From: an uncultured Algibacter sp.
GTDB lineage: Bacteria; Bacteroidota; Bacteroidia; Flavobacteriales; Flavobacteriaceae
Direction: 5' to 3'
Length of the DNA: 64,000 bases
NCBI GenBank assembly: GCA_947502405.1
Contig: CANMZT010000003.1
Location: 186,001 to 250,000, forward strand
Shown: positions 5,382 through 60,704 of the stretch, piece by piece
How positions within the stretch are numbered: the first letter of the stretch is position 1
How the letters are laid out: every line of letters starts with the position of its first letter
Translations under genes and position numbers: made by a program
The notes under the pieces: generated by a model
The model's input: the letters and a program-made list of their open reading frames with translations, nothing else
Told to the model about the DNA's origin: nothing
Databases searched by the model: none

Positions 5382-7799
5382 TTAGCCTATGATATGCAAC
5401 TCGTTAAACTCCTTAGTAAGTGTTAATGTATTGTTTCCATTAAGCTTAAGTTCTTTTAAAGGAATTTCAACATTGTCAACCTCTACTTTTGAAATTTTGA
5501 ACGGTAACCCATGTAAATTCAATTTAAAGGTTTTGTACGTGGTAATAAATTTACCAGATTTGTGTTGTTGGATAATCAGTTCCTTCTTCTTACCAGACAG
5601 CTTAAAAGTTCTTAAGCTATATCTACCTTTAATGTAGTCATAACCATCAGTAGCATCTTCATAAACCTCAGAGTTTTCCTTACCTTCTTTGTAATATACA
5701 TCTAGTAACAACTCGTCTATAGTCTTTTCTCCAACATACTGTTGTACGGGGTATTTAGGTATAATTGCACCTTCTTTTACAAAAATTGGCATGCTATCTA
5801 AATCTGCATCAACCCATTGTTCTGTACCACCATCAATAACTTCATCATTCCAGAAGTTGTACCATTTTCCTAATGGAAAATACATGCGTCTTCCGTTTTG
5901 GTTTGGTCCTGTAATTGGGCATGCTAATATCTTTTCACCAAAAACAAACTCATCATTTCTATAGTGTGTCTGCGGATCTTCTTGATCGTAAAGTACTAAA
6001 GATTTTAAAATAGGTGTTCCTTCTTCAGCATATCTCCAAAATGCTGTGTATAAGTAAGGTAATAATTGATACCTAATTTCAATAAATTTTCTAACAACGT
6101 CTGTTATTGTTTTTCCGAAAGCCCAAGGTTCTTGATCACCATGGTCTCCAGAAGAGTGTGTTCTACAAAACGGATGGAAAATACCTAATTGAATCCATCT
6201 GGCATATAATTCGCCATTAGGTTGTTCAGCAAAACCACCAATATCAGATCCAATAAATGAGAACCCTGACATACACATACGTTGTGCTTGTAAATTCGCA
6301 ATGGTTAAATGATCCCAAGTTGCTATATTATCTCCAGTCCAACTTGATGTGTAACGTTGCGTTCCAGAATAGGCAGCTCTTGTAATTACAAAAGGTCTTT
6401 TTGGGTAAGAGAACTTCTTTAAACCTTGGTACGTAGCACGTGCCATTTGCATACCATAAACGTTATGTGCTTTTCTATGGCTACAGTGGTTTCCATCATA
6501 GTCATGTCTTACATCATTAGGAAATGTTTTTCCAGGAACGTCCATTACAGCAGGTTCATTCATATCATTCCAAACCCCTTTTACGCCTATGTCTTCTACG
6601 AGTTCTTTGAATAAATCAGACCACCAATCTCTTACTTCAGGATTTGTGAAATCTGGAAAATAGCATTCCCCAGGCCAAACTTTACCCTTCATGTAAGGGC
6701 CATCAGCACGCTTACAGAAGTAATCTTTATCAAGCCCTTCTTTAAACACAGAATAATCCATATCTATTTTAATACCAGGGTCAATGATTACTATGGTTTT
6801 AAAACCATCATCAGCTAATTCCTTAACCATTCGTTTTGGATCTGGAAAATATTCTTTACTCCAAGTAAAGCATCTAAAACCTTCCATGTAATCAATATCT
6901 AAGTAAATGGCATCACAAGGAATTTCTAATTCTCTAAATTTAGCGGTTATTTCCTTTACATTAGATTCTGGGTAGTAACTCCATTTGCATTGATGATACC
7001 CAAGCGTCCAAAGCGCAGGCATTTCATGAGGCTTACCAGTTAAATCTGTGTAACTTTCAACAACATCTGACATTTTAGGACCGTAGATGAAATAATAATT
7101 CATTTCACCACCTTGTGCCCAAAAACTAGTTATATTTCTACGTTCATTACAAAAATCGAAAAATGACCTAAACGTGTTGTCAAAAAACACACCGTAAGAC
7201 TTTTTGTTATGTAATCCCGTGTAAAAAGGAATGGCTTTATAAATGGGGTCTGTATCTCTGCCATAAGCATAAGAATCTGTCACCCAATTTTCAAATCGTT
7301 TTCCTTTCAAGTTGTTATCTACTGGTTTATCACCTAAGCCATAATAACTTTCTCCTGGTTGCGCAGTTTTTGACATCTTTACTATGTCTCCACCAAACTC
7401 ATAGCTTTCTTCCCAGTGGAAACCAAGCTCATCTTCACATATTAGAGATTTGTCTATAGCATCATAGATAGATGTTCTTAAATCTAATTTTGAAATATGA
7501 CAGATTAATTTTGAAGTTGTAATGATGTAGTTATCTTCATCTTCAGTTACATCTAAATGATTATAACCTCTGCTTGCGTATTTTGTAATAGCATATGAAA
7601 AATCTTTTTCAAAAATCCCTGTTGTAGTGAATCTGAAACGTAATATACTATCCCTTCTTACAGTAACTTCCAATACTACACCGTTTTCTGTGGTGAAGGA
7701 GAGTACATTTAGGTTCTTTTCGTATTTTATTATTTTAGAAGGAAATAGGTTTCCTTTATATTCTAATTCTGTATTTAATATCATAAAATGATGAGTCAA
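5382..7799 (-). CDS. GH31 family alpha-glucosidase
   Basis: An 805-aa protein with an N-terminal galactose-mutarotase-like sandwich (about 10-230) and a GH31 barrel. The nucleophile block WNDMNEPAVM, the downstream block SSWTGDNIATW (acid/base region) and FSFIGSDIGGF are all present, followed by the C-terminal beta domains. There is no signal peptide, so it is probably cytoplasmic or at most periplasmic by another route. It releases glucose from alpha-glucan ends and lies just downstream of the glycogen operon, separated by a terminator and 250 bp, so it is probably transcribed separately. The start could also be the ATG five codons in (MILNTELEYKGN), which looks more family-like. Confidence 0.93.
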   Translation of the reverse strand: MTHHFMILNTELEYKGNLFPSKIIKYEKNLNVLSFTTENGVVLEVTVRRDSILRFRFTTTGIFEKDFSYAITKYASRGYNHLDVTEDEDNYIITTSKLICHISKLDLRTSIYDAIDKSLICEDELGFHWEESYEFGGDIVKMSKTAQPGESYYGLGDKPVDNNLKGKRFENWVTDSYAYGRDTDPIYKAIPFYTGLHNKKSYGVFFDNTFRSFFDFCNERRNITSFWAQGGEMNYYFIYGPKMSDVVESYTDLTGKPHEMPALWTLGYHQCKWSYYPESNVKEITAKFRELEIPCDAIYLDIDYMEGFRCFTWSKEYFPDPKRMVKELADDGFKTIVIIDPGIKIDMDYSVFKEGLDKDYFCKRADGPYMKGKVWPGECYFPDFTNPEVRDWWSDLFKELVEDIGVKGVWNDMNEPAVMDVPGKTFPNDVRHDYDGNHCSHRKAHNVYGMQMARATYQGLKKFSYPKRPFVITRAAYSGTQRYTSSWTGDNIATWDHLTIANLQAQRMCMSGFSFIGSDIGGFAEQPNGELYARWIQLGIFHPFCRTHSSGDHGDQEPWAFGKTITDVVRKFIEIRYQLLPYLYTAFWRYAEEGTPILKSLVLYDQEDPQTHYRNDEFVFGEKILACPITGPNQNGRRMYFPLGKWYNFWNDEVIDGGTEQWVDADLDSMPIFVKEGAIIPKYPVQQYVGEKTIDELLLDVYYKEGKENSEVYEDATDGYDYIKGRYSLRTFKLSGKKKELIIQQHKSGKFITTYKTFKLNLHGLPFKISKVEVDNVEIPLKELKLNGNNTLTLTKEFNELHIIG

Positions 7800-7995
7800 T
7801 ATTAATTGACGAAAATACTAAATTTAAAAGACCTTACATGCTTCTTTTTACTAAAAAATAAAGCTAAAAATTGCATAAAAACTAAATAATGAATGGATTA
7901 ATTATGGAAAATTTAATGCTAAGTCAATCAGCAGATATTTAGTGACTTAGTCGATATATGAATACCATAGAATGATCTATTTTTCTACAAAAAAA

Positions 7996-8034
7996 TGGCT
8001 CTAATATTCATTTTAAAAATAAATATTAGAGCCA
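7996..8034 (-). terminator. Terminator of the glycogen operon
   Basis: A 13-bp inverted repeat TGGCTCTAATATT...AATATTAGAGCCA follows glgB. Read on the minus strand it is followed by TTTTTTTGTAG, a classical U-tract. It separates glgB from the GH31 gene. Confidence 0.88.
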
Positions 8035-8055
8035 TGCAATGTCTATGTTTTTATT

Positions 8056-9960
8056 TTAAGCCTTAAAGGAGAAAACTGTTACCGCTAATGGTGGTAAATT
8101 AATTTCTGCAGAATATTCTTTACCATTCCAAGGGTCTTTTTTAATGGTTATTTGTTTTTTATTACCAACACCACTACCTCCAAACTCTTTAGCATCACTA
8201 TTAAAAATTTCAATAAGTTTTCCCTTATTAGGAACGCCTATTTTGTATTTCTTTCTAACAGTTGGAGTTAAATTACAAACTACAGCTACATTTTCTTTAT
8301 AACCTTTTCTGATGTATGAAATAACACAGTTTTCATGGTCGTCATAACTTATCCACTCAAATCCTTCTCCGCTAAACCCTTGCTCATAAAGTGCTGGGGT
8401 GTTTTTATATAATGCGTTAAGTGATTTATAATAATTTTGCATGTTTTTATGCGGAGCAAATTCCAATAGGTTCCAATCTAAACTTTCTTGGAAATTCCAC
8501 TCATTGTATTGCCCAAATTCACCACCCATAAATAATAATTTAGTACCAGGGTGTGTAAACATATAGCCATATAATAAGCGTAAGTTTGCAAAACGCTGCC
8601 ATTCATCACCAGGCATTCTACCTAAAATAGAGTTTTTACCATAAACTACTTCATCATGAGAAAGCGGTAACATAAAATTCTCTGTAAAAGCATAAGCTAA
8701 ACTAAATGTAATTTCATTATGATGATATTTTCTGTAAACAGGATCTTTAGCAAAATATTCTAAAGTATCGTGCATCCAACCCATCATCCATTTCATTCCA
8801 AAACCTAAACCGCCAACAAATGTTGGTTTAGATACCATTGGAAATGCCGTAGACTCTTCTGCAATAGTCTGTACATCAGGAAATGAAGCATATATTTCTT
8901 CATTTAATTCTTTTAAGAAGCTTATAACAGCAAGGTTTTCTCTACCGCCATAAATATTTGGTTCCCACTCGCCATCTTCTCTTGAATAATCTAAAAACAG
9001 CATAGAAGCAACAGCATCAACACGCAAGCCATCGGCATGATATTGATCCATCCAAAACACAGCATTACTTATTAAGAATGAGCGCACCTCGTTACGTTCA
9101 TAATTAAAAATTAAACTTTTCCAATCTTGATGATACCCCTTGCGTCTATCTGGGTGTTCGTATAAATGTGAACCATCAAAAAATCCTAATCCATGTGCAT
9201 CTTCTGGAAAGTGTGATGGTACCCAATCTAATATAATACCCACTCCTGCTTGGTGCAATTTATCTACTAAATATTTAAACTCTTCAGGGTACCCAAAACG
9301 CGATGTTGGCGCAAAATATCCTGTTAATTGATACCCCCAAGACGGATCATAAGGATATTCCATAATTGGCATTAACTCTACATGAGTAAAATTCATATCA
9401 CTTACATAGTTAACTAAGTCATCAGCTAACTCATAATAAGACATAAAACGATCTTCTTCAATATGGCGTTTCCAAGATCCTAAATGTACTTCGTAAACAG
9501 AGAATGGTGCATCAATAGCATTATTCTTTTTACGGGTTTTCATCCAGCTTTTGTCTTTCCACTTATAATCATCATCCCAAACAATTGATGCTGTTTTGGG
9601 AGGATGTTCAAAACGTCTTGCGTAAGGGTCTGCTTTTTCTGTTTTTATATCGTTATTATGACTTTGTATTTTGTATTTGTAGGAAGTACCTTTGCCAATT
9701 AGTGGAATAAAACCTTCCCAAATACCACTTGAATCCCAACGAACATTTAATTGGTGTTCACCTTCCATCCAATAATTAAAATCTCCAATAACAGATACTT
9801 GTTTAGCTGTAGGAGCCCAAACTGCAAAATATACACCATCGATACCATCAACGGTAACTATATGAGATCCAAACTTCTCATAAAGTCTAAAGTGTTTCCC
9901 TGCCTTAAAGAGATTAATATCGAATTCGGTAAATAAACTGTGAACTTTTACTTGTGCCAT
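8056..9960 (-). CDS. glgB: 1,4-alpha-glucan branching enzyme
   Basis: A 634-aa GH13 protein that introduces alpha-1,6 branches into linear alpha-glucan. An N-terminal CBM48-like domain (FAVWAPTAKQVSVIGDFNYW, about 45-65) precedes the barrel, with conserved region II DGLRVDAVASM (nucleophile Asp), region III TIAEESTAFP (acid/base Glu) and region IV LPLSHDEVVYG. It is the last gene of the five-gene operon, 3 bp after the maltokinase gene. Length matches the usual 620-730 aa. In the GlgE route, branching creates the non-reducing ends that GlgE extends. Confidence 0.96.
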   Translation of the reverse strand: MAQVKVHSLFTEFDINLFKAGKHFRLYEKFGSHIVTVDGIDGVYFAVWAPTAKQVSVIGDFNYWMEGEHQLNVRWDSSGIWEGFIPLIGKGTSYKYKIQSHNNDIKTEKADPYARRFEHPPKTASIVWDDDYKWKDKSWMKTRKKNNAIDAPFSVYEVHLGSWKRHIEEDRFMSYYELADDLVNYVSDMNFTHVELMPIMEYPYDPSWGYQLTGYFAPTSRFGYPEEFKYLVDKLHQAGVGIILDWVPSHFPEDAHGLGFFDGSHLYEHPDRRKGYHQDWKSLIFNYERNEVRSFLISNAVFWMDQYHADGLRVDAVASMLFLDYSREDGEWEPNIYGGRENLAVISFLKELNEEIYASFPDVQTIAEESTAFPMVSKPTFVGGLGFGMKWMMGWMHDTLEYFAKDPVYRKYHHNEITFSLAYAFTENFMLPLSHDEVVYGKNSILGRMPGDEWQRFANLRLLYGYMFTHPGTKLLFMGGEFGQYNEWNFQESLDWNLLEFAPHKNMQNYYKSLNALYKNTPALYEQGFSGEGFEWISYDDHENCVISYIRKGYKENVAVVCNLTPTVRKKYKIGVPNKGKLIEIFNSDAKEFGGSGVGNKKQITIKKDPWNGKEYSAEINLPPLAVTVFSFKA

Positions 9961-9963
9961 AAA

Positions 9964-11592
9964 TTAATGATTTATAATATTAGATATTCCTTTTAAAGGA
10001 ATGACTGCCCATTGGGGACGTGAATTGAGTTCGTAACCCAACTCATAAACTGCTTTTTCTAATAAACAGTATTTTAATATAAATATACGCTCTTGATTGT
10101 ATCCTAAATTTAGATTTGCATTTTGAGTTTCAGTAACATAAGTTCCTAAGAACAAACCGGTTATATATCTGTATAATACCTCGCCAGCTTTAAATAATGA
10201 TTCTTGAGATTCTTTGTATTTACTAATATTATTAAAAATATTGGCATAAATAGCGTAATGAAAAGATCTGAACAAGCCTGCAACATCTTTTAATGGGGGT
10301 TGTTTTACTTTTCTATCTCGAATGGTGCTTTCTGGTTCTCCTTCAAAATCTAAAATGTAAAAATCACTATCTTTTACTAACACTTGCCCTAAATGATAAT
10401 CGCCATGAATTCTAATGCGTTCACCTTTGAGTTTGGTCCAATCAAAATTAACAAAACGTTTTCTTATGCTGTTTTTTTTATCTAGAAACTCGTGAGCTAA
10501 ATTAGCTGCTAAACCTTCTAGTTTATCTAAGCTGTTTTCAATAATATTTAATCGGTTTTGAAACTGATAGAGCATTTTGTTTTTTAACCAAACCTCATAG
10601 TCACCATTAAAATGCGCTGGTGTAAAGGCTGTTTCTTCAAACTCAGAGCCAAGGGCAATATGCATTTCTGCAGTGCGTTTAGCTAAGGTTTTTACTTGAT
10701 TGAATAAATTTAAACCAGCCCAATCTATAATTTGAGGTGCAATACCTTCTATGGTTAAACGCTGGTATAGTTCTGCGTTTGGAAGCGTTTCAATATTAAT
10801 TTTTTTGTATTCTAAATTTGAAAATACTTTGTGTAATTCTTTAAGCATGTAATCCCAAGCATCTCCTTCATTTGGAATCATTTCCTGCATCAATCCAATT
10901 GTAATATTAGTATTTTCAGAGTCTACTAGATTTATACTGCCTAAGTATAAAGGTGTATTTTTAAATTCCTTTTTTTCTGATAAAAAACGACTCATTTCGT
11001 AATCAGGATTTTTATCTCCAAAAATTCTTCTAAAAAATTTCAACACATACTTATCGTTATATACCAGAGACGTATTACTTTGTTCTAAGCCCATAAATCT
11101 TGATGAGTTATAGGTTATGTTTTCAAATAAAAGGCTTTTATGGTATTGAACTTTTGTTGTGTCTTTAGGTTGTGCAGTAGCAATTCGTTCAAAAACCAAT
11201 TTTCTAAACGATTCTAAATTAACGGCATCAATTATAAATCCATCTTTATTTTGAATACTAATTGGAAGTATCCTGTCTTTTTGTGCAAAATTTTCATCTG
11301 TTACAAAAGCAATAGGAAGAAAATAATGTTGATAAAATGCTTCAACAAAATTAACCTCTAAAATCAACCCAAAATAAATCTCACCATGTTGCTGAATTTT
11401 AAAGTATTCTGCAAGTTCTATGTATTTTAGTTGACTTGATTTACCACCATACCAACGTTGCTGTAGAATATAAGCTTCAAGGACATCAGATAGAAATATT
11501 TCAACAAACGCTTCGTTATCGAGCAATACTTCCCAAGAATCGTTAGATTCAAACAGAGGCTTTGTAGATGCTATTGAAGCGTGCTTAGCCAT
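9964..11592 (-). CDS. Maltokinase (Pep2/Mak1-like)
   Basis: A 542-aa kinase-like fold. The N-terminal cap contains LQQRWYGGKSSQLKYIELAEYF, a hallmark of maltokinases. The C-lobe has RIRIHGDYHLGQVLVKDSDFYILDFEGEP, the Brenner HGDxHxxQ and DFEG metal-binding motifs, then PPLKDVAGLFRSFHYA. It phosphorylates maltose with ATP to alpha-maltose-1-phosphate, the GlgE donor. It lies 3 bp from both glgE (upstream) and glgB (downstream). In many bacteria the kinase is fused to or adjacent to trehalose synthase TreS, and no treS is visible here. Kinase assignment is strong; maltose specificity comes from family and context. Confidence 0.9.
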   Translation of the reverse strand: MAKHASIASTKPLFESNDSWEVLLDNEAFVEIFLSDVLEAYILQQRWYGGKSSQLKYIELAEYFKIQQHGEIYFGLILEVNFVEAFYQHYFLPIAFVTDENFAQKDRILPISIQNKDGFIIDAVNLESFRKLVFERIATAQPKDTTKVQYHKSLLFENITYNSSRFMGLEQSNTSLVYNDKYVLKFFRRIFGDKNPDYEMSRFLSEKKEFKNTPLYLGSINLVDSENTNITIGLMQEMIPNEGDAWDYMLKELHKVFSNLEYKKINIETLPNAELYQRLTIEGIAPQIIDWAGLNLFNQVKTLAKRTAEMHIALGSEFEETAFTPAHFNGDYEVWLKNKMLYQFQNRLNIIENSLDKLEGLAANLAHEFLDKKNSIRKRFVNFDWTKLKGERIRIHGDYHLGQVLVKDSDFYILDFEGEPESTIRDRKVKQPPLKDVAGLFRSFHYAIYANIFNNISKYKESQESLFKAGEVLYRYITGLFLGTYVTETQNANLNLGYNQERIFILKYCLLEKAVYELGYELNSRPQWAVIPLKGISNIINH

Positions 11593-11595
11593 ATC

Positions 11596-13533
11596 TTATT
11601 TATTGATATTGAAAATATGAAAGGGCATAGTTGGATGCAACTCCACAAAACACCATTCATTATTCCAATTGTAACGACTATCTGTAATTAAATCGTGCAT
11701 TTCAAGGTTATGCCCATGGTACACTCCAATATCGTGTAAAGGTACCTGAATTGTACCTTGTTGCGAATTGTGAGCATCTAAACTGATAATCACTAATATC
11801 TGATTAGTTCTGTCGTCATTCCATTTATAGAATGCTATTAAATTATCGTTGTTTATATGACAAAATTTAATATTATTGGTTTGTTGCAATGCAGTGTTAT
11901 GATGTCTGATATAATTTATTTTCGCGATTATGGTCGTAAGTTTGTTTTGGATTTCCCAATTGTAATGCGTGATTTGGAATTTCTCAGAATTTAAGTACTC
12001 TTCTTTTCCTAATAAAGAATCAGAAAGCATGTATTCAAAAACAGGCCCATAAATACCAATACACGAACTTAGTGTTGCTGCAAGTGCATACCGTTGTATA
12101 TGCTTAGATTCATTAGCTCCCTGTAAATGATACGGGTTAATATCTGGAGTATTTGGCCAAAAGTTTGGTTGCATGTACTCTTTTAATTCTGATTTTGTTA
12201 ACTCTTCAACATATTCAGTAAGCTCATGCTTATTTTCACGCCAAGTAAAATAGGTATAAGATTGCGTGTAGCCTTGTTTGGCTAGCTGTTGCATAACTTT
12301 AGGTGCTGTAAATGCTTCGGCTAAAAAGATAACATCGGGGTGTTTTGCTTTTACTTGAGTAATTATCCAGTTCCAGAAATAGAATGGTTTTGTATGCGGA
12401 TTATCTACTCTAAAAATGTTTATACCACAGTCAATCCAATGCATTAAAATGTCCAAACATTCATGCCAAAGGTTTTTGTAGTCTTCGCTTTCCCAGTAAA
12501 TTGGTAATATATCTTGATATTTTTTTGGTGGATTTTCAGCGTATTGAACCGTACCGTCTGGTCGCCATTTAAACCAAGATGGATGTTCTTTTACCCATGG
12601 GTGATCTGGTGCTGCTTGTAAAGCATAATCCATGGCTATTTCAAGATTGTTTTCTTTAGCCTTTTGAATTAAAGATTTGAAATCATCTAATGAACCAAGT
12701 TGTGGATGAATATCTTTATGTCCACCATACTGAGAACCAATACCCCAAGTGGAACCTACATCACCTTCTTTGGCTTCAGTAGTATTGTTTTTACCTTTTC
12801 TATTAACCTCGCCAATGGGGTTAATTGGCGGTAAATACACCACATCAAAACCCATATTTTTTATTCGCGGTAACAACCTTTCGCAGTCTTTAAATGTACC
12901 ATGAACCCCTTCTTTTTCTGAAGCAGAACGAGGAAAAAATTCATACCAAGTGCTAAATCTCGCCTTTTTTCTATCTACATAAACTTGATATTCTTTGGAA
13001 GTATTATCAAGAATCTTTACAGGGTTATTAAAGAAAATCTTATAAAGTTTTTCATTACTTGCTTCTGTAATGGCTTCTCCATAATCATCTTCATTTTTGA
13101 AAAGCTTATGAAGGTGTTTGAGATAAGATTTATCATCTCCTTTTACTTTACCTAAAACAGCGTCGATATATTCAGCACCTTCAAGTAATTCTGAAGATAC
13201 ATGCTGTCCATCATTTATTTTTCTGATTAATCCATAGCGCCAATTTAAGGCATAATCTACCCAAGCCTGTACTTTATATGTGTAAAAACCTTGTTTTTCA
13301 ACTGTAAAAGTAGCTTTCCATTCATCATTGGAAATCAAGGTCATTCGGGTTTCTTTCCAGATTTTGTCTTTTTCGTGTTTGTATAATACAGATGCTCCTA
13401 AAACATCATGACCATCCGCCATAATGTGAGCTTCTACATTAACAATTTCATTAACAACACGTTTAATATAAAACTCACCACAATTAACACTAGGTGAGAT
13501 ATGGTCAATTACAACTCTTCTTTGGTCTTGCAT
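11596..13533 (-). CDS. glgE: Alpha-1,4-glucan:maltose-1-phosphate maltosyltransferase
   Basis: A 645-aa GH13_3 enzyme that transfers maltosyl from maltose-1-phosphate to glucan chains. The N-terminal beta domain is GlgE-like (RVVIDHISPSVNCGEFYIKR; GFYTYKVQAWVDYALNWRYG). The barrel has VVYLPPINPIGEVNRKGKNN, the nucleophile block IFRVDNPHTKPFYFW and the acid/base block VIFLAEAFTAPKVM. Length is as expected (about 640-700). It is the third gene of the operon after glgC. The maltokinase and the GlgM-like synthase alongside make the pathway assignment secure. Confidence 0.95.
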   Translation of the reverse strand: MQDQRRVVIDHISPSVNCGEFYIKRVVNEIVNVEAHIMADGHDVLGASVLYKHEKDKIWKETRMTLISNDEWKATFTVEKQGFYTYKVQAWVDYALNWRYGLIRKINDGQHVSSELLEGAEYIDAVLGKVKGDDKSYLKHLHKLFKNEDDYGEAITEASNEKLYKIFFNNPVKILDNTSKEYQVYVDRKKARFSTWYEFFPRSASEKEGVHGTFKDCERLLPRIKNMGFDVVYLPPINPIGEVNRKGKNNTTEAKEGDVGSTWGIGSQYGGHKDIHPQLGSLDDFKSLIQKAKENNLEIAMDYALQAAPDHPWVKEHPSWFKWRPDGTVQYAENPPKKYQDILPIYWESEDYKNLWHECLDILMHWIDCGINIFRVDNPHTKPFYFWNWIITQVKAKHPDVIFLAEAFTAPKVMQQLAKQGYTQSYTYFTWRENKHELTEYVEELTKSELKEYMQPNFWPNTPDINPYHLQGANESKHIQRYALAATLSSCIGIYGPVFEYMLSDSLLGKEEYLNSEKFQITHYNWEIQNKLTTIIAKINYIRHHNTALQQTNNIKFCHINNDNLIAFYKWNDDRTNQILVIISLDAHNSQQGTIQVPLHDIGVYHGHNLEMHDLITDSRYNWNNEWCFVELHPTMPFHIFNINK

Positions 13534-39313: not shown

Positions 39314-39387
39314 GGGCCTATAACTCAGTTGGTTAGAGTATCTGACTCATAATCAGAAAGTCCCTAGTTCGAGCCTAGGTGGGCCCA
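39314..39387 (+). tRNA. tRNA with CAT anticodon (Met or lysidine-modified Ile2)
   Basis: The cloverleaf reads by eye: acceptor GGGCCTA/TGGGCCC, D-arm CTCAGTTGGTTAGAG, anticodon arm TCTGA-CTCATAA-TCAGA, T-arm CCTAG-TTCGAGC-CTAGG, discriminator A, CCA not encoded. CAT can be Met or Ile2, and I cannot separate them safely. It is the likely integration target of the element to its right. Confidence 0.93.
39366..39387 (+). other. Candidate attL: 3' end of the tRNA gene
   Basis: The integrase gene begins 130 bp downstream of the tRNA 3' end, the usual position for a tRNA-targeting element. The matching attR repeat should lie beyond 64 kb and is not visible, so the core cannot be defined. Confidence 0.4.
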
Positions 39388-39393
39388 CAACAC

Positions 39394-39424: not shown

Positions 39425-39517
39425 TTTTTGTGTGTAACCTTATTGTAAAAATAATTTTGTTTTTAGTGCTAAAAAGTGCTAAAATTGTGCTAAATATGTA
39501 TGTAAAATGTATGTCAT

Positions 39518-40756
39518 TTGAAAGCCACAATAACCTTATTAACATCACAAAGAGAAACTAAAAAAGGTTTTCCTATTTGTGTGGAACTATTTATATCATC
39601 TAAAAACAGACCACGAAAAAACATAGGTGCTTCAAAAATTGAGTACTGGGATAGTCAAAATAACATACCAACAAAAGATCATCCAGAATACTACGTGCTT
39701 TACCCAAAAGTACTAGAATATGTTTCTAAAATAACCAAAATAAATCATAACGATTATACTCCAGAAGAAGCTGCTAATTTCCTGTTTTCTGATAATAAAA
39801 AAGTCAGTACTAAAAAAGGTATTGGTTATATCGATTTTTTTAATGTCAGAATAAACGAAAAGGCCGCAAGAAAGGAAGCTACCAAAAATTACAAAGAAAT
39901 AAGGGATTTAATAAAAAATTATTTGGACAACACAGACGTTTTAATGCATGATTTGGATTATGAGTGGGTAAATGAGTTTATTAATTTTAAATACCAAACA
40001 GGATGCAATGAAGGTGGTGTAATGAGTTATTTAAGAACCATGAGTGCGGTTTATAATGAAGCATCAAAACGATCATCTTTAAATATTACAAACCAAAACC
40101 CGTTTAAGGCACATTTAAAAAAGCCCAAAAAGAAAGATGTTATAGTTATTCCAGAGCAGGAACTTTTAAAGCTTACTAATTTTTCACCTCATAAATTTGC
40201 TACTGAAAAATCTAAATTTAATATGCAACGAGCGTTAGCGGTTTGGCGTTTTCAGCTTTTTGTTGGTGGGCATGATTATATTGATATGTCGCAATTAAGA
40301 TGGGAGCAGATAAAAAATAACAGAATCAAATTTAAACGCTACAAAAATAGAGAGGAAGAAAATGGCGGTCCAGAAATTGATAATTATTTGTTTGATGAAT
40401 TGCTTTCTATAATTAAAGCCTACGGCACACCAAATAGTAGCCGTATTTTTTCTTTTATTCCAGATCCAGTTAAGGATAACCAAAGGTATATTATTTACAG
40501 GCAAAATGTTAGTAGAACATTAGCCAAAATAGCTAAACAATCTGGTATGAAACATAAAATGAAAACAAAATCTGTAAGGTATATTTTTAAAACCTATGCA
40601 GAAGAAATAATGACACATGATACTATTATAAAAAAGTTAATGGGCCATTCTTTACGTGGTGTATCTTTTAATTATTTAGGTAAGCTTTCTTATAGCGTTG
40701 TTGATGATGCACACCGTAGAATTATAGATTATATTTTAAATCCACCACAACACTAA
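39518..40756 (+). CDS. Tyrosine recombinase/integrase (TTG start)
   Basis: A 412-aa protein. An arm-type DNA-binding domain (LKATITLLTSQRETKKGFPICVELF) precedes a SAM-like core-binding domain (about 95-200) and a catalytic domain. C-terminal motifs are KSVRYIFKTYAEEI and LMGHSLRGVSFNYLGKL (Tyr nucleophile). The usual first catalytic Arg position reads VGGHDYIDMSQLRW, so the Arg appears replaced by His. The frame is open only from 39506 with no ATG, making TTG at 39518 the likely start. It probably integrates and excises the element at the tRNA. Confidence 0.9.
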   Translation: MKATITLLTSQRETKKGFPICVELFISSKNRPRKNIGASKIEYWDSQNNIPTKDHPEYYVLYPKVLEYVSKITKINHNDYTPEEAANFLFSDNKKVSTKKGIGYIDFFNVRINEKAARKEATKNYKEIRDLIKNYLDNTDVLMHDLDYEWVNEFINFKYQTGCNEGGVMSYLRTMSAVYNEASKRSSLNITNQNPFKAHLKKPKKKDVIVIPEQELLKLTNFSPHKFATEKSKFNMQRALAVWRFQLFVGGHDYIDMSQLRWEQIKNNRIKFKRYKNREEENGGPEIDNYLFDELLSIIKAYGTPNSSRIFSFIPDPVKDNQRYIIYRQNVSRTLAKIAKQSGMKHKMKTKSVRYIFKTYAEEIMTHDTIIKKLMGHSLRGVSFNYLGKLSYSVVDDAHRRIIDYILNPPQH

Positions 40757-42268: not shown

Positions 42269-42817
42269 TTAATTATTAGCGTTTTGTTGTTTTTTAACAG
42301 TTTGTTCAATCTCGTTTTGTATTTTAATTAAGGCTTGTAGCTTGTCTAAAAACGGACTTTGTTGATTTACTCCGTTTTGGTTAAGTAGCGTTTCAAGCAT
42401 TATTAATTGTTTTTCAAGGCTTTCAATAGTTTTATCAAGCACAGAAATTCTAATCATCCGTTCTTCAAGAAGTTTGTCTTTAGTTAAAACTAATTCTTCA
42501 TAATTACTAATTATTTTGTTGTAAGCTTCAATGGTTTTGCTATCAATGTCTTTTTCGTAATTAGTCTCGGGTTCTTTTACAAAGTGCTTCGAGGTGTTTT
42601 TGCCTTTTGATAAATCAGTGTTTATAAAATCATCAATACTAATTTCAAAATGTTTAGATAGCTTTTGGAAAAATTCAATTTCAAAATGTTTTTTCTTATT
42701 ATTTTCTAAGGCACTAATAAAATCTCTATTAACACCACAAACACTTGCTAAATCAGGTTGAGTTAAATAATTTATCTTTCTTAGATAGATGGAATTTATT
42801 GAAATAAAATTATTCAT
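42269..42817 (-). CDS. XRE-family repressor-like regulator
   Basis: A 182-aa protein. The N-terminal HTH_3 (LRKINYLTQPDLASVCGVNRDFISALENNKKKHFEIEFFQKLSKHFEI, about 13-60) is followed by a linker and a coiled coil (about 90-180, LEERMIRISVLDKTIESLEKQLIMLETLL). It is divergent from the early operon across a 349-bp gap and is the natural candidate for the element's repressor. There is no peptidase domain for self-cleavage. Confidence 0.85.
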   Translation of the reverse strand: MNNFISINSIYLRKINYLTQPDLASVCGVNRDFISALENNKKKHFEIEFFQKLSKHFEISIDDFINTDLSKGKNTSKHFVKEPETNYEKDIDSKTIEAYNKIISNYEELVLTKDKLLEERMIRISVLDKTIESLEKQLIMLETLLNQNGVNQQSPFLDKLQALIKIQNEIEQTVKKQQNANN

Positions 42818-44881: not shown

Positions 44882-46636
44882 ATGAAACCACAACACCACA
44901 AACCGCAATTACACATCGTGTTTAATAATGCCATCCCTAATACTCCAGATGGTGATTTACAAGTTATTCCAAAAATAATCCAGCACCAAAACATACACTT
45001 AGCACAACGCCGTATTATGTTGGAAAAATACCGCCACTACGTGCAAAAATACGCCAACTCTTGCCCAATACTAAATAAAGAGGTGCTGCAATACAATGCT
45101 AAAGTTATGGCCCATGTAGAGCAAACCAAAAACCATGACTATGCAAAACAGGTTACTGATGCTTTTAATGAAGATTTTAATAAAGTAAGCATCCAAGAAT
45201 ATAACCACGCTGTAAGATTGCGAAACATAGAACTTGCACAACCTTTAATAAAGCTTAAAAAATTTACTCCTGTAAAAAAGAGTACAGAACATGTGTTTAG
45301 CATGATATTGTTTAAGTATGCTATGCAGGTTACAGAAAAAAACAACATTCTAAAAAGTTGTGGTGCTACAACTACTAGAGGTATTCAAAAAATACAAATA
45401 AACCATTATGAATTAGCAAACACGGTTATTGATGAAGTTTTTACACTCCCCTATTGTAAGCGCACTATACACAACCACATTAACCGTTTGGTTGAAGCTG
45501 GGGTGTTGTTCGATTATACATTTAAAGGCCGTGAAAAGCCTGTTGAATACCATCTAAACGCTCAAATTCTAACCTTGTTTTGCCTGAAAAAGCGAAAACC
45601 CTTTTGCGCTCAAAATCAGCTTTTTACCTTTTCATTCGAGAAAGAGTTGCATAATAATGATATAGATACTAGAACATATATAAATAAAAAAGAAATAATA
45701 GAGCCTGTTAATAAACAGTCTCGAATAAAGGATACGGAAACCCTGTCGGGTGTCCTCTCGAAAATGCAGTTATCGGAAAAAACCGATAACAACCAGAACA
45801 ATAACAGGAACACCATCCAGCGTAGCAATTCTGAAAAAGAAAAACACACCAGCGGCGCGAATTTTGGCGCAAAAACCCAAGTTGATATGGCTAGTTTTCT
45901 ATTAAAAAATATAGATGATCGGCAAACATTAATAGAAAAGTTTAGCCACGGCCATTTTAAAAACTGGCGATTTTACGAAAACGCTCCCAAAAAGAACCCT
46001 TATGCTTTAGTAACCATGCAACATTTAGAGTATGAGCAAGATTACGGTATTATGCTAAAAGCCGATTTTTTAGAACTCCTGCAGCAAATTCTTTTTAAAA
46101 TGTGCGGTAATATTTATAGAAAATCTAATAAAAACGGACTTTTTAACTACGCAGGACCATCATACAAAGGTTACATGCAAATAGAAACCTTGTTACTTAA
46201 TAAAAATGGCACCGTACCCACAAAAAAAGTATTGCTTTCAACCTTTAAAGGCCTGTTGTGGCGTATAAAATTTGCATCAAACTACTACAATAGTAAATCT
46301 ATAACCCCACTTTTTATAAATGAATATCTGGACCCAACACGTACCACAAGTAAAGAAGGTGGTTTTGCATACACCCTACAGTTTTATAAAAACCATTTAG
46401 AATTGCAGCATTTCTCTGAAAAAGTAATTAAAACAAAGCAGCTTCAGCAAGAAAAAGCAAAAGTTAGAAAGCAAAAAATGAAAGCTATTGAATTGGTTGA
46501 AAAACAAATTAATAAGCTTAAAAACGGACAAATAAGCATTGTAAAATTACACGATTACGTTAGTAATAACGCACATATACCCCAAAGCATCAAAGCAAAA
46601 TTACCCGAGTATATTCAAAGAGCTTATAGTGTATAA
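44882..46636 (+). CDS. Large winged-helix protein, possible replication protein
   Basis: A 584-aa protein and the largest early gene. A central segment, NTVIDEVFTLPYCKRTIHNHINRLVEAGVLFDYTFKGREKPVEYHLN (about 183-230), reads as a winged HTH. A polar, low-complexity linker follows (about 275-330), then a conserved-looking helical domain (NWRFYENAPKKNPYALVTMQHLEYEQDYGIML). The C-terminus is Lys/Gln coiled coil. The layout resembles plasmid or phage replication initiators, but no catalytic motif is visible. I do not recognise the family. Confidence 0.65.
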   Translation: MKPQHHKPQLHIVFNNAIPNTPDGDLQVIPKIIQHQNIHLAQRRIMLEKYRHYVQKYANSCPILNKEVLQYNAKVMAHVEQTKNHDYAKQVTDAFNEDFNKVSIQEYNHAVRLRNIELAQPLIKLKKFTPVKKSTEHVFSMILFKYAMQVTEKNNILKSCGATTTRGIQKIQINHYELANTVIDEVFTLPYCKRTIHNHINRLVEAGVLFDYTFKGREKPVEYHLNAQILTLFCLKKRKPFCAQNQLFTFSFEKELHNNDIDTRTYINKKEIIEPVNKQSRIKDTETLSGVLSKMQLSEKTDNNQNNNRNTIQRSNSEKEKHTSGANFGAKTQVDMASFLLKNIDDRQTLIEKFSHGHFKNWRFYENAPKKNPYALVTMQHLEYEQDYGIMLKADFLELLQQILFKMCGNIYRKSNKNGLFNYAGPSYKGYMQIETLLLNKNGTVPTKKVLLSTFKGLLWRIKFASNYYNSKSITPLFINEYLDPTRTTSKEGGFAYTLQFYKNHLELQHFSEKVIKTKQLQQEKAKVRKQKMKAIELVEKQINKLKNGQISIVKLHDYVSNNAHIPQSIKAKLPEYIQRAYSV

Positions 46637-48634: not shown

Positions 48635-48910
48635 ATGGCAAATAAACGATGTTGCAGTCAATTTATAGATCGTGCTGGTTGCTGCCCTGTACATAGTAAG
48701 TATAAGTTAATATTTCAGTTAAAACCAGAATATAAAACTATGGATAGTAGCCCTACTTTTTATAATTGGGTGTATGAGAACAATAAATCTTACCAATTGA
48801 TTTTTCAAGGTATGATTAAAAGACTAGAAAAATACTTTACAGGTAAGTATAACGTAATAGAATTTTACGAACAAGGAGCCGAAAAACCTTTAATTGAAGC
48901 AAAACCATGA
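48635..48910 (+). CDS. Cys-rich-start hypothetical protein
   Basis: A 91-aa protein starting MANKRCCSQFIDRAGCCPVHSKYK, a possible metal-binding knuckle (CCx8-9CCxxH). It overlaps the next gene by 4 bp. Not recognised. Confidence 0.55.
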   Translation: MANKRCCSQFIDRAGCCPVHSKYKLIFQLKPEYKTMDSSPTFYNWVYENNKSYQLIFQGMIKRLEKYFTGKYNVIEFYEQGAEKPLIEAKP

Positions 48911-56902: not shown

Positions 56903-57115
56903 TTAAGTTTTATTCTCTTCCAACTCGCCAAAAGCTTCCATAATAATGGTACATTCTTTTTTGGTGAGTTTTTTTATTTTTTTGGCTTCTTCAAGCGTTA
57001 TTCCACGCTGTTCTTTAATAGTTTTATTAGTAAATTCAGCTAAATAAGCATCTCTACTGCCGTTAATGTGTGTGTGTAACCGCCCTTTATTACAGGCGCA
57101 TGGTAGTGGTTTCAT
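56903..57115 (-). CDS. Small hypothetical protein on the opposite strand
   Basis: A 70-aa protein starting MKPLPCACNKGRLHTHINGS (CxC...H...H, possible metal site) with a helical acidic tail. It has its own shared leader and is divergent from the late operon, so it may be a late regulator (inference). Confidence 0.55.
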   Translation of the reverse strand: MKPLPCACNKGRLHTHINGSRDAYLAEFTNKTIKEQRGITLEEAKKIKKLTKKECTIIMEAFGELEENKT

Positions 57116-57137: not shown

Positions 57138-57203
57138 CAAATTTAATAAATTATATCTATAAAAAATACTTTCTGCATAGTTTTTAGGTATGTTATAATA
57201 ACG

Positions 57204-57263
57204 AATAGTAAAAAATAGTAAAAAATCGTGGCTAATCGTGGCTTACGTTAACGAATCGTAAAA
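57204..57263. repeat. Six in-phase 10-bp units
   Basis: AATAGTAAAA x2, AATCGTGGCT x2, TACGTTAACG, AATCGTAAAA, with an exact 10-bp period. This is one helical turn, typical of arrayed operators or iterons. It lies between the divergent 70-aa gene and the late operon. Confidence 0.8.
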
Positions 57264-57359
57264 CCATCACACACTTATATCTCATCTTTATAACCTGATA
57301 AGAGAAATTTTAATCATGCACAATGAAAAGTTTTGAATTAGTTAAGTAAGGTTATTTAT

Positions 57360-57412: not shown

Positions 57413-59074
57413 ATGACGTCAGAAGAAATTAACACAGCATTATACAGGCCCATTTTAAGTGGCGATAAGTATAATGGTTTATTTCCTTCAAGCGCATGTA
57501 AAACAGTAAAGCTTGCTAAAGGTAATACCAAGGTAGCTATTACTCAAATGGCTAAATGGGCCAAAAAGTATGTAAATCATACTAAAAAAATAGCACCCAC
57601 TTTTATAGCAAATACGCTAGAAGAAACTTTGAATAATATTCAATGGTTTTTGTATTGGCATATTAACTACAAAATTGATGGTACAGATCAAAACCTAAAA
57701 AGCCCTGCATGTTCATGGGAAACAAGATTTGATGGTACTGATTGTAAAAGCTACAGCATTTTTGCAAGCACTATACTTTTAAACTTAGGTATCAACCATT
57801 TTCTGCGGAGAATTAAACAAAACGATGGCAGTAACGCCTTTACACATGTTTACGTAGCAATACCTATAAATCAATCACAAAAAACACTTACTAAAAACGC
57901 AAAATTTGGTAAAGACTATCTAATAATTGATGGCACCATAGAGCATAATATAGAATTACCCTTCAGAGATAAAGATGATATTTATATGGAAACTAAATTA
58001 CCAATATACGGATTAGCAGCACCACACAGAGGTATGGGTTGTAGTTGTGGTTGTAACAATTATCAATCACCAGATATAGTGCCTATGGTAACACCAGATG
58101 TAATGCCTGTGGTGGCAATGGCTGGTTTAGGTTCTGATAGAGTAACTCAAATTCCTATTAATGGTATAACAAAAGGGTTTAACCTACCTACATTAGAAAA
58201 CACTACATATAATCAATTACCTATTGGTACTAACAGCGGTTTTGACCCATTAAATCCAGTAAATTCTCTGATTTCTTTAATACCTGGTGGGGATATTATA
58301 AATTCTGTAGTGCCAGTTGGCGAAATACTTGGAAACATTACTAAGTATGCTGGCGATATGTTTTCTACAAGCTTATCGTGTTATAAATCTACACATACAC
58401 CCTCGCAAACTGAAACGTCTATCAATAATGTGTTGATGCCTTTTATTACAAACGAGTTAAGTCTTGTAGATTCTAATAATCCAGAATTGGCTTTAGTACA
58501 ACTAGAAACCATTATGAAGTATGCTAAAGGCGGATATAGTGGCGTTGAAGGTGCTTTAACTGAAAGCAAATGGAAAAAATGCAGTAGAGAAAGCTTAAAA
58601 ATGTTTAGCAAATGGTGGAACAAAACCTTTAATGAAGTTAAAGCAAAAAGAGACAAGCTAGTTTCTCAAATGAAAGCCGCAGGTTATGTTTTAGATAGTA
58701 AAACGCAATCTTTTGATTCCAGAACATGGGACGTAGGCGATAAACCTAACACCTATGAAGGCGATATAGGATTAAATGTATATGGAGCCAAATATGATAA
58801 TACAGGTTTTGAAACATTTAACATGAAAACATACAGTATCAAGTACGCTCCTGAAAATACAAGTATTTCTTTGGATGGTAGCACTCCAGATATTGTTTCC
58901 AGTTACGTTGATACAAATGGCGAATTGGTTTTTTTAGATGCAAACAACCAAAAAGTAAATACTAAAAAACCAAAAACACAACAAGCTGGTTTTGGTTTAA
59001 TGGGCGGTATAGTTATAACGGCCATAATTGTAGGTGCTGTTGTTTTAAACAAGAATGATAAACCAAAAGAATAA
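57413..59074 (+). CDS. Transglutaminase-like cysteine protein with C-terminal membrane anchor
   Basis: A 553-aa protein. Residues about 30-190 look like a transglutaminase/papain-like fold: Cys111 in FDGTDCKSYSIFASTIL, His145 in AFTHVYVAI, Asp173 in YLIIDGTIEHN. Next comes a Cys cluster RGMGCSCGCNN (about 206-216), a Gly/Pro-rich middle, a helical segment (about 330-430) and one C-terminal helix (GFGLMGGIVITAIIVGAVVL) with a short basic tail. First gene of the late operon. It may crosslink or cleave virion or wall proteins (inference). Confidence 0.65.
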   Translation: MTSEEINTALYRPILSGDKYNGLFPSSACKTVKLAKGNTKVAITQMAKWAKKYVNHTKKIAPTFIANTLEETLNNIQWFLYWHINYKIDGTDQNLKSPACSWETRFDGTDCKSYSIFASTILLNLGINHFLRRIKQNDGSNAFTHVYVAIPINQSQKTLTKNAKFGKDYLIIDGTIEHNIELPFRDKDDIYMETKLPIYGLAAPHRGMGCSCGCNNYQSPDIVPMVTPDVMPVVAMAGLGSDRVTQIPINGITKGFNLPTLENTTYNQLPIGTNSGFDPLNPVNSLISLIPGGDIINSVVPVGEILGNITKYAGDMFSTSLSCYKSTHTPSQTETSINNVLMPFITNELSLVDSNNPELALVQLETIMKYAKGGYSGVEGALTESKWKKCSRESLKMFSKWWNKTFNEVKAKRDKLVSQMKAAGYVLDSKTQSFDSRTWDVGDKPNTYEGDIGLNVYGAKYDNTGFETFNMKTYSIKYAPENTSISLDGSTPDIVSSYVDTNGELVFLDANNQKVNTKKPKTQQAGFGLMGGIVITAIIVGAVVLNKNDKPKE

Positions 59075-59545: not shown

Positions 59546-59607
59546 ACAAAAAGGATCAAACACACACACAAACACACACAAATAAAAACAAATTAAAAAA
59601 AGTAATC

Positions 59608-60243
59608 ATGTTAGAAATACAGAATAAATTAAGAGCAATTGCTTGGATGCGTGACACAATGAAGCCAAAATTATTTACAGTATTAAGCTTTTTAGTACTA
59701 GTAAGTAGTCAATTGTCTGCTAACACTCAATTGTTAGCAGCGCAAGGTAAAATTAACCCTAGAGATAGAAGTATAACAGTTCGCAATAAAGTTGTAGCTG
59801 GAGGAACTATCAATTTATTAGATGGCTATAATGCCATGATTAAAGGTAAGAATGATTTTAACGGTAATAAGTTATCAAACAACTTAAATTTTGTTTTAGA
59901 TTCACTTCAACTGAATTATGGAACAGGAGTAACCGCAACGGTTGGTGATAAATATGATTTAGTAGATTTCACATCTTCATTGCCACCTGCTTTAAAATCA
60001 GCTATTTTAATTATTGAGCAAGACGATAAGGTGATTAGAAAACTTTCAATTGCAGCAATTAATGAAGCTAAAAGTACTGATAACCGTTTTTATGAAACTC
60101 AACTAGCTTTATTGAAAAGTGACACAATAACAGGTCTTAAAATCGAATTTGGAGAGAATGCTGCATTCACTTATACAGGTGGTGATGACGCTTCTTATGT
60201 GGAGTTGATTTTACAAGGTTTTGAAACCGCAACTACATACTAG
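59608..60243 (+). CDS. Beta-rich protein, capsid or major structural protein candidate
   Basis: A 211-aa protein. A hydrophobic stretch (LFTVLSFLVLVSSQLSA, about 22-38; possibly a signal if translation starts at Met 18) is followed by a strand-rich body (INPRDRSITVRNKVVAGGTINLLDG; SAILIIEQDDKVIRKLSIAAIN; TGLKIEFGENAAFTYTGGDDASYVELILQGFE). It has its own strong terminator, as expected for an abundant product. A jelly-roll capsid is plausible but unproven. Confidence 0.5.
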   Translation: MLEIQNKLRAIAWMRDTMKPKLFTVLSFLVLVSSQLSANTQLLAAQGKINPRDRSITVRNKVVAGGTINLLDGYNAMIKGKNDFNGNKLSNNLNFVLDSLQLNYGTGVTATVGDKYDLVDFTSSLPPALKSAILIIEQDDKVIRKLSIAAINEAKSTDNRFYETQLALLKSDTITGLKIEFGENAAFTYTGGDDASYVELILQGFETATTY

Positions 60244-60320: not shown

Positions 60321-60704
60321 ATGGAAAATAGTAATGTTAAGCATCTTTACGATAAAGTAAATATTGTCATCCCTGTTGGTTCGCCTAGTTTTAGTAAATC
60401 AATTTCTATTAAAAAAGGAAAATGTGTTGGAGTTAAACTTATTCATATTTCTAGCGCACAAGCCGTTAATCAAAACTTAAATCTTGGGGTATCAGATGGT
60501 AATAATCCATTAGTTAACGCTACAGATTTTAGAGATTTTATTCAGCTTGGTGGCGGTTATAAAGATGGTTTTAAACCTTGTAATTTCGATTCTAGCTTAG
60601 AAGTATCTGTTGATGCCATTGCTGAAAGTAATATTGCAGGTGCAGATTTTAAGGCTCAACTCATTTTTATGATTGAGGAAGAGTGTAACGCAATTAATAA
60701 CTAG
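60321..60704 (+). CDS. Small beta-rich structural candidate
   Basis: A 127-aa protein. Strands (KVNIVIPVGSPSFSKSISIKKGKCVGVKLIHISSA; ADFKAQLIFMIEEE) fit one beta sandwich. The Gly/Asn-rich centre (NLGVSDGNNPLVNATDFRDFIQLGGGYKDG) is loop-like. Neighbours are also small and beta-rich. Not recognised. Confidence 0.5.
   Translation: MENSNVKHLYDKVNIVIPVGSPSFSKSISIKKGKCVGVKLIHISSAQAVNQNLNLGVSDGNNPLVNATDFRDFIQLGGGYKDGFKPCNFDSSLEVSVDAIAESNIAGADFKAQLIFMIEEECNAINN

Follow-up and report, generated by a model that had tools for sequence, protein, structure and literature searches.

An array of phased 10-bp units as the proposed late-promoter operator of a probably tailless provirus-like element in Flavobacteriaceae

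Between a small divergent gene and the first gene of a late operon, an apparently integrated element carries a run of short direct repeats, and the question raised by this locus is which protein reads them and for what purpose. The original prediction placed six consecutive 10-bp units here and left two options, a late-promoter operator or replication iterons. In the window (the whole stretch of DNA analysed, 64,000 nucleotides long, whose numbering is used throughout) the array was confirmed at exactly the positions claimed, with two copies of AATAGTAAAA, two of AATCGTGGCT and one each of TACGTTAACG and AATCGTAAAA. Tandem Repeats Finder detected both duplicated halves with a period of 10, and a lag-10 scan agreed with it: the strongest 50-bp segment of the 78-kb stretch scanned was the array (start 57196), with matches at 31 of 40 positions, whereas 60 simulations of the window under an order-2 Markov model averaged 23.9 and did not exceed 27. 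The second-best segment was a CA-rich simple repeat of low complexity (59556-59598) between two late genes. Unit 5 is off the consensus and shares its register with a degenerate unit that precedes unit 1; TAACGAAT(A/C)GTAAAA is thereby present twice at a spacing of exactly 50 bp (5 units), and seven in-phase units are the fuller description. The placement between a divergent small gene and the late operon was likewise borne out, and the features around the array are as follows.

56903..57115, reverse strand: gene of a 70-aa protein, the proposed array binder (family in 67 of 75 loci; covariation; predicted fold)
57138..57145, reverse strand: putative -7 box TAAATTTG of the divergent 70-aa gene, a perfect TAnnTTTG (from the sequence and the published motif)
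57194..57203, forward strand: degenerate in-phase unit TATAATAACG before unit 1, a weaker seventh (7/10 match to unit 5)
57204..57263, forward strand: proposed late-promoter operator, six contiguous 10-bp units (sequence, Tandem Repeats Finder, lag-10 scan; period kept in relatives)
57283..57290, forward strand: putative -7 box CATCTTTA of the late promoter, a weak match to TAnnTTTG about 20 bp after the array (AnnTTTG stands here in relatives)
57413..59074, forward strand: 553-aa first late gene (transglutaminase-like domain of about 215 aa; weak DUF553 match)

Among 400 genomes of the family, 18 carry a homologue of the 553-aa protein, and 75 GTDB loci, nearly all of them in Flavobacteriaceae, were likewise found to hold one; the 450 bp upstream of these genes show what is kept of the array and what is not. 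The top period was 10 or 20 in 52 of 76 loci. In a unit-alignment test 10 was the best period in 58 of 76 upstream regions (binomial P ~4e-30 against 1/6) and in 46 of the 54 with z>5, and with other settings period 10 reached z>4 in 49/75 regions vs 9/346 controls, which were other intergenic stretches from the same loci (Fisher P ~2e-35); about a quarter of the loci lack a 10-bp array at the position searched. Conservation in relatives, proposed earlier as a check, thus holds for the 10-bp phase in most of them and not for the unit sequence, which varies widely between elements (AATACCTTAC, AATCCGACAG, AAACCAACGT, TTAGTTTAAC, CCCAATCTCA) while the period stays constant. Even two elements of one genome, F. 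amniphilum KYPY10, carry different units, of the AATACCT type in one (L044) and the AATCA type in the other (L046), and their small proteins differ as well. As units differ between elements even inside a single genome, the reader of the array is likely to be encoded by the element itself. The late-operon strand of the arrays is C-rich in 46 of 52, so that polarity too is common to the relatives, the array of the window being an exception. At two loci 10-bp arrays were seen about 1.0 kb (L056, ~8995) and 5.5 kb (L057, ~4474) upstream of the late gene and not directly before it, and TTGCAA-type repeats spaced at 11 bp occur upstream of the late operon, farther away than the 10-bp units, in L065, L073-L076, L078, L079 and L082.

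The position of the arrays relative to the transcription start signals speaks for the first of the two options. In flavobacteria the -7 consensus of sigma-A promoters is TAnnTTTG (PMC9723704), and AnnTTTG, which matches most of it, lies at most 45 bp downstream of the array in 28 of 52 loci, typically 18-31 bp after the array end; shuffled sequences gave a mean of 4.0 and a maximum of 11, and the reverse-strand control was also raised (16/52). No TTG of a -33 box was found at offsets 15-34 upstream of AnnTTTG in any of the 28 promoters aligned, hence the arrays end at a place that lacks a -33 element. The putative box that follows the arrays resembles the -7 motif of flavobacterial sigma-A promoters (PMC9723704), but the -33 part is absent and an array stands in its place. 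The idea of a late-promoter operator is supported by this fixed place before the first late gene, by the AnnTTTG just downstream and by the missing -33 box.

The late operon runs on the forward strand with the gene of the 553-aa protein first and extends past the end of the window. The other features of the element which are needed here are listed below.

39346..39365, forward strand: probable attL core CTCATAATCAGAAAGTCCCT in tRNA-Met (39314-39388), a 20-bp direct repeat
39518..40756, forward strand: tyrosine integrase (Phage_int_SAM_5)
42269..42817, reverse strand: putative element repressor of XRE type (HTH_3/HTH_19)
44882..46636, forward strand: 584-aa protein kept in 33 loci, a replication-protein candidate considered as a rival array binder
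48635..48910, forward strand: 91-aa protein kept in 35 loci, considered as a rival array binder (relatives Cys-rich at the N-terminus)
59608..60243, forward strand: 211-aa protein, capsid candidate (predicted beta-rich single jelly-roll)
60321..60704, forward strand: 127-aa protein kept in 62 loci, a second candidate for a capsid protein on grounds of size and position only

The 20 bp of attL recur at 75981, beyond the window end, and from these two copies the length of the element follows as about 36.6 kb. Beside the attL core and the integrase gene, AGTGCTAAAA-type repeats with a spacing of 10-11 bp were noticed at 39464-39514, perhaps integrase arm sites. In the 553-aa protein C111, H145 and D173 of the N-terminal transglutaminase-like domain are conserved, the part outside this domain is variable, and a hydrophobic segment lies at the C-terminus. 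The AlphaFold model of the 211-aa protein is a beta-rich jelly-roll (pLDDT 83), for which Foldseek ranked the Sulfolobus polyhedral virus 1 (SPV1) capsid protein first (E=1.6e-3, prob 1.00, TM 0.41/0.46). None of the late proteins scanned was recognised as terminase- or tail-like. The viral contigs of IMG/VR gave no match for the single 553-aa protein or for A3 and three weak loci for A2; the full homologue alignment (A1) proved too diverse for collection scans. In INPHARED neither the 553-aa protein nor proteins related to those of 211 and 70 aa had a match. Given the jelly-roll model, the lack of a recognised terminase- or tail-like late gene and the near lack of relatives in both collections, the element (39346 to ~76000) is probably an undescribed tailless provirus with a jelly-roll capsid, present at at least 75 GTDB loci in Flavobacteriaceae but hardly represented in the phage collections searched. 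The F. columnare prophage fF4 was looked at and set aside as Mu-like (PMC7761591). In the part of the element past the window end (L002, 10092-13910) a 1272-aa protein shows by eye a P-loop motif (GKPKNGKT) near its C-terminus and is possibly a packaging ATPase.

The small proteins encoded upstream of the late operon fall into two clusters when the open reading frames of the loci are clustered, and the HMMs of both clusters find each other and the 70-aa protein (probability 97.7 when the alignments of the two clusters are compared by hhalign). The joint family occurs at 67 of 75 loci, with about half of the losses at contig ends; most members consist of one domain of ~60 aa, and some elements carry domain duplications. 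No member passed the Pfam cut-off, NCBIfam gave nothing convincing for the five family proteins scanned, and PHROGs gave marginal matches only, to unnamed families. The AlphaFold model of the family, made from a 56-sequence alignment (pLDDT 78, pTM 0.66), has the layout short strand, H10-18, H23-37, H41-45, short strand, H52-67, and Foldseek returned no significant match to it in PDB or BFVD (BFVD rank 1 at E=0.46). A resemblance to the C-terminal domain of ribosomal L7/L12 had two weak leads, one Pfam match (E=0.0013) below the cut-off and the BFVD rank 1, but profile comparison did not support it, hhalign giving no alignment. The family is an undescribed one with a possibly new fold. The small protein has a net charge of +4, and its gene lies upstream of the late operon and in the same orientation in 57 of 67 loci, the divergent layout being found in 10.

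That this protein is the best candidate for the array binder is suggested by covariation. The distance between unit motifs follows the distance between small proteins (Mantel r=0.31, P=0.0005, in a test which controls for relatedness only partially), and the correlation persists under control for five other proteins in turn, the late ones of 553, 211 and 127 aa and the early ones of 91 and 584 aa (r=0.23-0.31, P<=0.0025); none of these five correlates significantly with the units after control for the small protein. With close relatives removed it was r=0.20 (P=0.0005), while in 20 'near' loci it was not significant under control for the 211-aa protein (r=0.11, P=0.11). A control with the neighbouring gene c29 yielded no information (5 loci). 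These results bear directly on the second option of the original prediction, that the units are iterons of a replication origin bound by the replication protein of the element, here the one of 584 aa. Contiguous tandem repeats do resemble iterons and a conserved early 584-aa protein is indeed at hand, yet the array keeps to the late operon and its -7 box and not to the neighbourhood of the 584-aa gene, and under control for the small protein the units do not track the 584-aa protein (r=0.08, P=0.25). The usual iteron length of 17-22 bp also counts against this option, which finds no support here and is regarded as highly improbable.

A further argument for the small protein as the reader is the agreement of domain number with array period. 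Tandem two-domain proteins are encoded at L050, L062, L084 and L016, and at two of these loci the array follows a period of 20 (lag-20 0.66 and lag-10 0.37 in L050, 0.70 and 0.33 in L062, the lag-10 values being near background), while lag-10 values are raised in single-domain arrays. Among 32 arrays these two are the most 20-bp-like ones, with a chance of ~0.002 for such a coincidence, and L016 shows a weaker form of the pattern. No clear array was found at the two-domain loci L084 and L138, and at the two-domain locus L139 a repeat occurs just twice, with a spacing of about 19 bp. That domain and period are doubled together, clearly in L050 and L062 and weakly in L016, is indirect support from few cases for one domain to each 10 bp. 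Alternation of paralogues on the 20-bp-leaning arrays of Tenacibaculum (L022, L025) was rejected, a single paralogue having been found there, and a second domain in the L044 protein proved a spurious short match.

Here the possibility has to be weighed that a host protein reads the array, or that the array is a mere DNA-shape element, with the small protein as a linked hitchhiker. Linkage alone could yield some covariation, and A-runs phased at 10 bp can bend DNA; but the correlation persists where the small-protein gene is more than 1.4 kb away (r=0.26, P=0.03), the arrays of L062, L072 and L088 are not A-tract arrays, and the unlike units of L044 and L046 stand in one host genome. As the match of domain number and period would also be left without explanation, we give this possibility very little credence.

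Taken with the promoter position, these comparisons make it likely that the array is the late-promoter operator of an integrated, probably tailless virus-like element, and that a small element-encoded protein binds it and activates the operon. The basic protein, here the one of 70 aa, would bind head-to-tail with one domain per 10-bp unit, and in such a register adjacent molecules would stack along one face of the DNA into a short cooperative filament. The filament would end about 20 bp before the -7 box, at the position expected of a -33 box, where it most likely recruits RNA polymerase and switches the late operon on. Of this, computation shows the array, its conserved phase, the protein family, the covariation, the agreement of domain number with period in two elements and the place of the box; DNA binding, cooperativity and activation as opposed to repression are inferred. 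In most relatives the small protein is encoded in the early region, on the same strand, and would appear after induction; here the 70-aa gene is divergent within the same intergenic region and may regulate itself. The same operator and the same protein could instead serve repression, with a filament that covers the late promoter until it is removed on induction and, in the divergent cases, self-repression. Occlusion is possible for an array at the -33 contact position, the divergent layout of this locus and of 10 loci resembles autoregulation, and Omega of pSM19035 acts on contiguous heptads overlapping promoters (PMC9499535). A gene which in 57 of 67 loci belongs to the early region and the late strand is, however, expected to be expressed with the early lytic genes and not in the lysogen, and promoters without a TTG -33 box are what is expected under dependence on an activator. 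We infer from the gene position that activation is to be preferred, and regard repression as unlikely.

Known proteins that read short direct repeats offer partial parallels. Omega (ParB) of pSM19035 binds 7-10 contiguous non-palindromic heptads over promoters, cooperatively and with one dimer per repeat (PMC9499535). The locus described here shares with it contiguous short direct repeats overlapping a promoter and a small protein, in Omega also a transcription regulator, whereas the unit is 10 bp instead of 7 bp and Omega is a ribbon-helix-helix protein of a plasmid partition system. To our knowledge there are no tandem-domain versions of Omega with a doubled period. ParR proteins read direct repeats in parC, which measure 10 bp in pB171, 11 bp in R1 and 20 bp in pSK41 (PMC9426499). 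Similar to the present arrays, these repeats are near the helical repeat and their sequence changes between systems along with the protein, here ParR, which binds them cooperatively, as is proposed for the small protein; in contrast, ParR is a ribbon-helix-helix protein that serves segregation with ParM and not a late viral promoter. With neither a significant Foldseek match nor a Pfam family over the cut-off, no ribbon-helix-helix fold was found for the 70-aa family, for which reason it was not filed with Omega or ParR.

The likeness in repeat length invites a reading of the array as a centromere- or packaging-like site, onto which a ParR-like or small-terminase-like protein loads the element, the promoter being incidental. 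ParR proteins do bind direct repeats of 10, 11 or 20 bp (PMC9426499), but a ParM/ParA-like gene was not seen, the array keeps its place at the promoter and the small-protein model has no fold match to ribbon-helix-helix proteins, which leaves such a site with scant probability.

With regard to late activation, which we prefer, the nearest functional counterparts are found in temperate phages. P2 Ogr and Mu C are small late-gene activators with zinc-finger or HTH folds that bind one or two short sites. The protein proposed here would resemble them as a small early-phase product that acts immediately upstream of the late promoter to switch the operon on, and would differ from them in its contiguous phased decamer arrays. 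We tentatively suggest, with slightly less than even confidence, that these proteins make up a new class among viral late-gene activators: very small modular proteins whose fold has no known match, polymerising on decamer arrays with one domain per 10-bp turn, in which duplicated proteins read 20-bp units, the code drifts fast and the geometry remains fixed, and whose carriers are widespread undescribed tailless proviruses of Flavobacteriaceae. Should this be true, dozens of natural protein/operator pairs would form a library in which the geometry of one domain per 10 bp is kept and specificity has diverged, and covariation together with a few binding assays could reveal how a small domain recognises its site. 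Searches for this widespread provirus group, nearly missing from the phage collections searched, would likewise gain a signature at the promoter level.

Some further loci of the small-protein family were observed. In L138 (G386, 8178-9094) two convergent two-domain genes lie with no clear array nearby, and a homologue of the late gene is missing from the stretch. In L140 (G355, ~5993-12000) several 10-bp arrays with AATCCT/AATCG units accompany three genes of single-domain members, and the stretch fetched holds no 553-aa homologue. A case in favour of the proposed reader is L108 (1486-1840), from a genome of another family of the order (G500), where a distant homologue of the small protein adjoins a late-gene homologue and a 10-bp array separates the two (lag-10 0.54 vs 0.26 expected).
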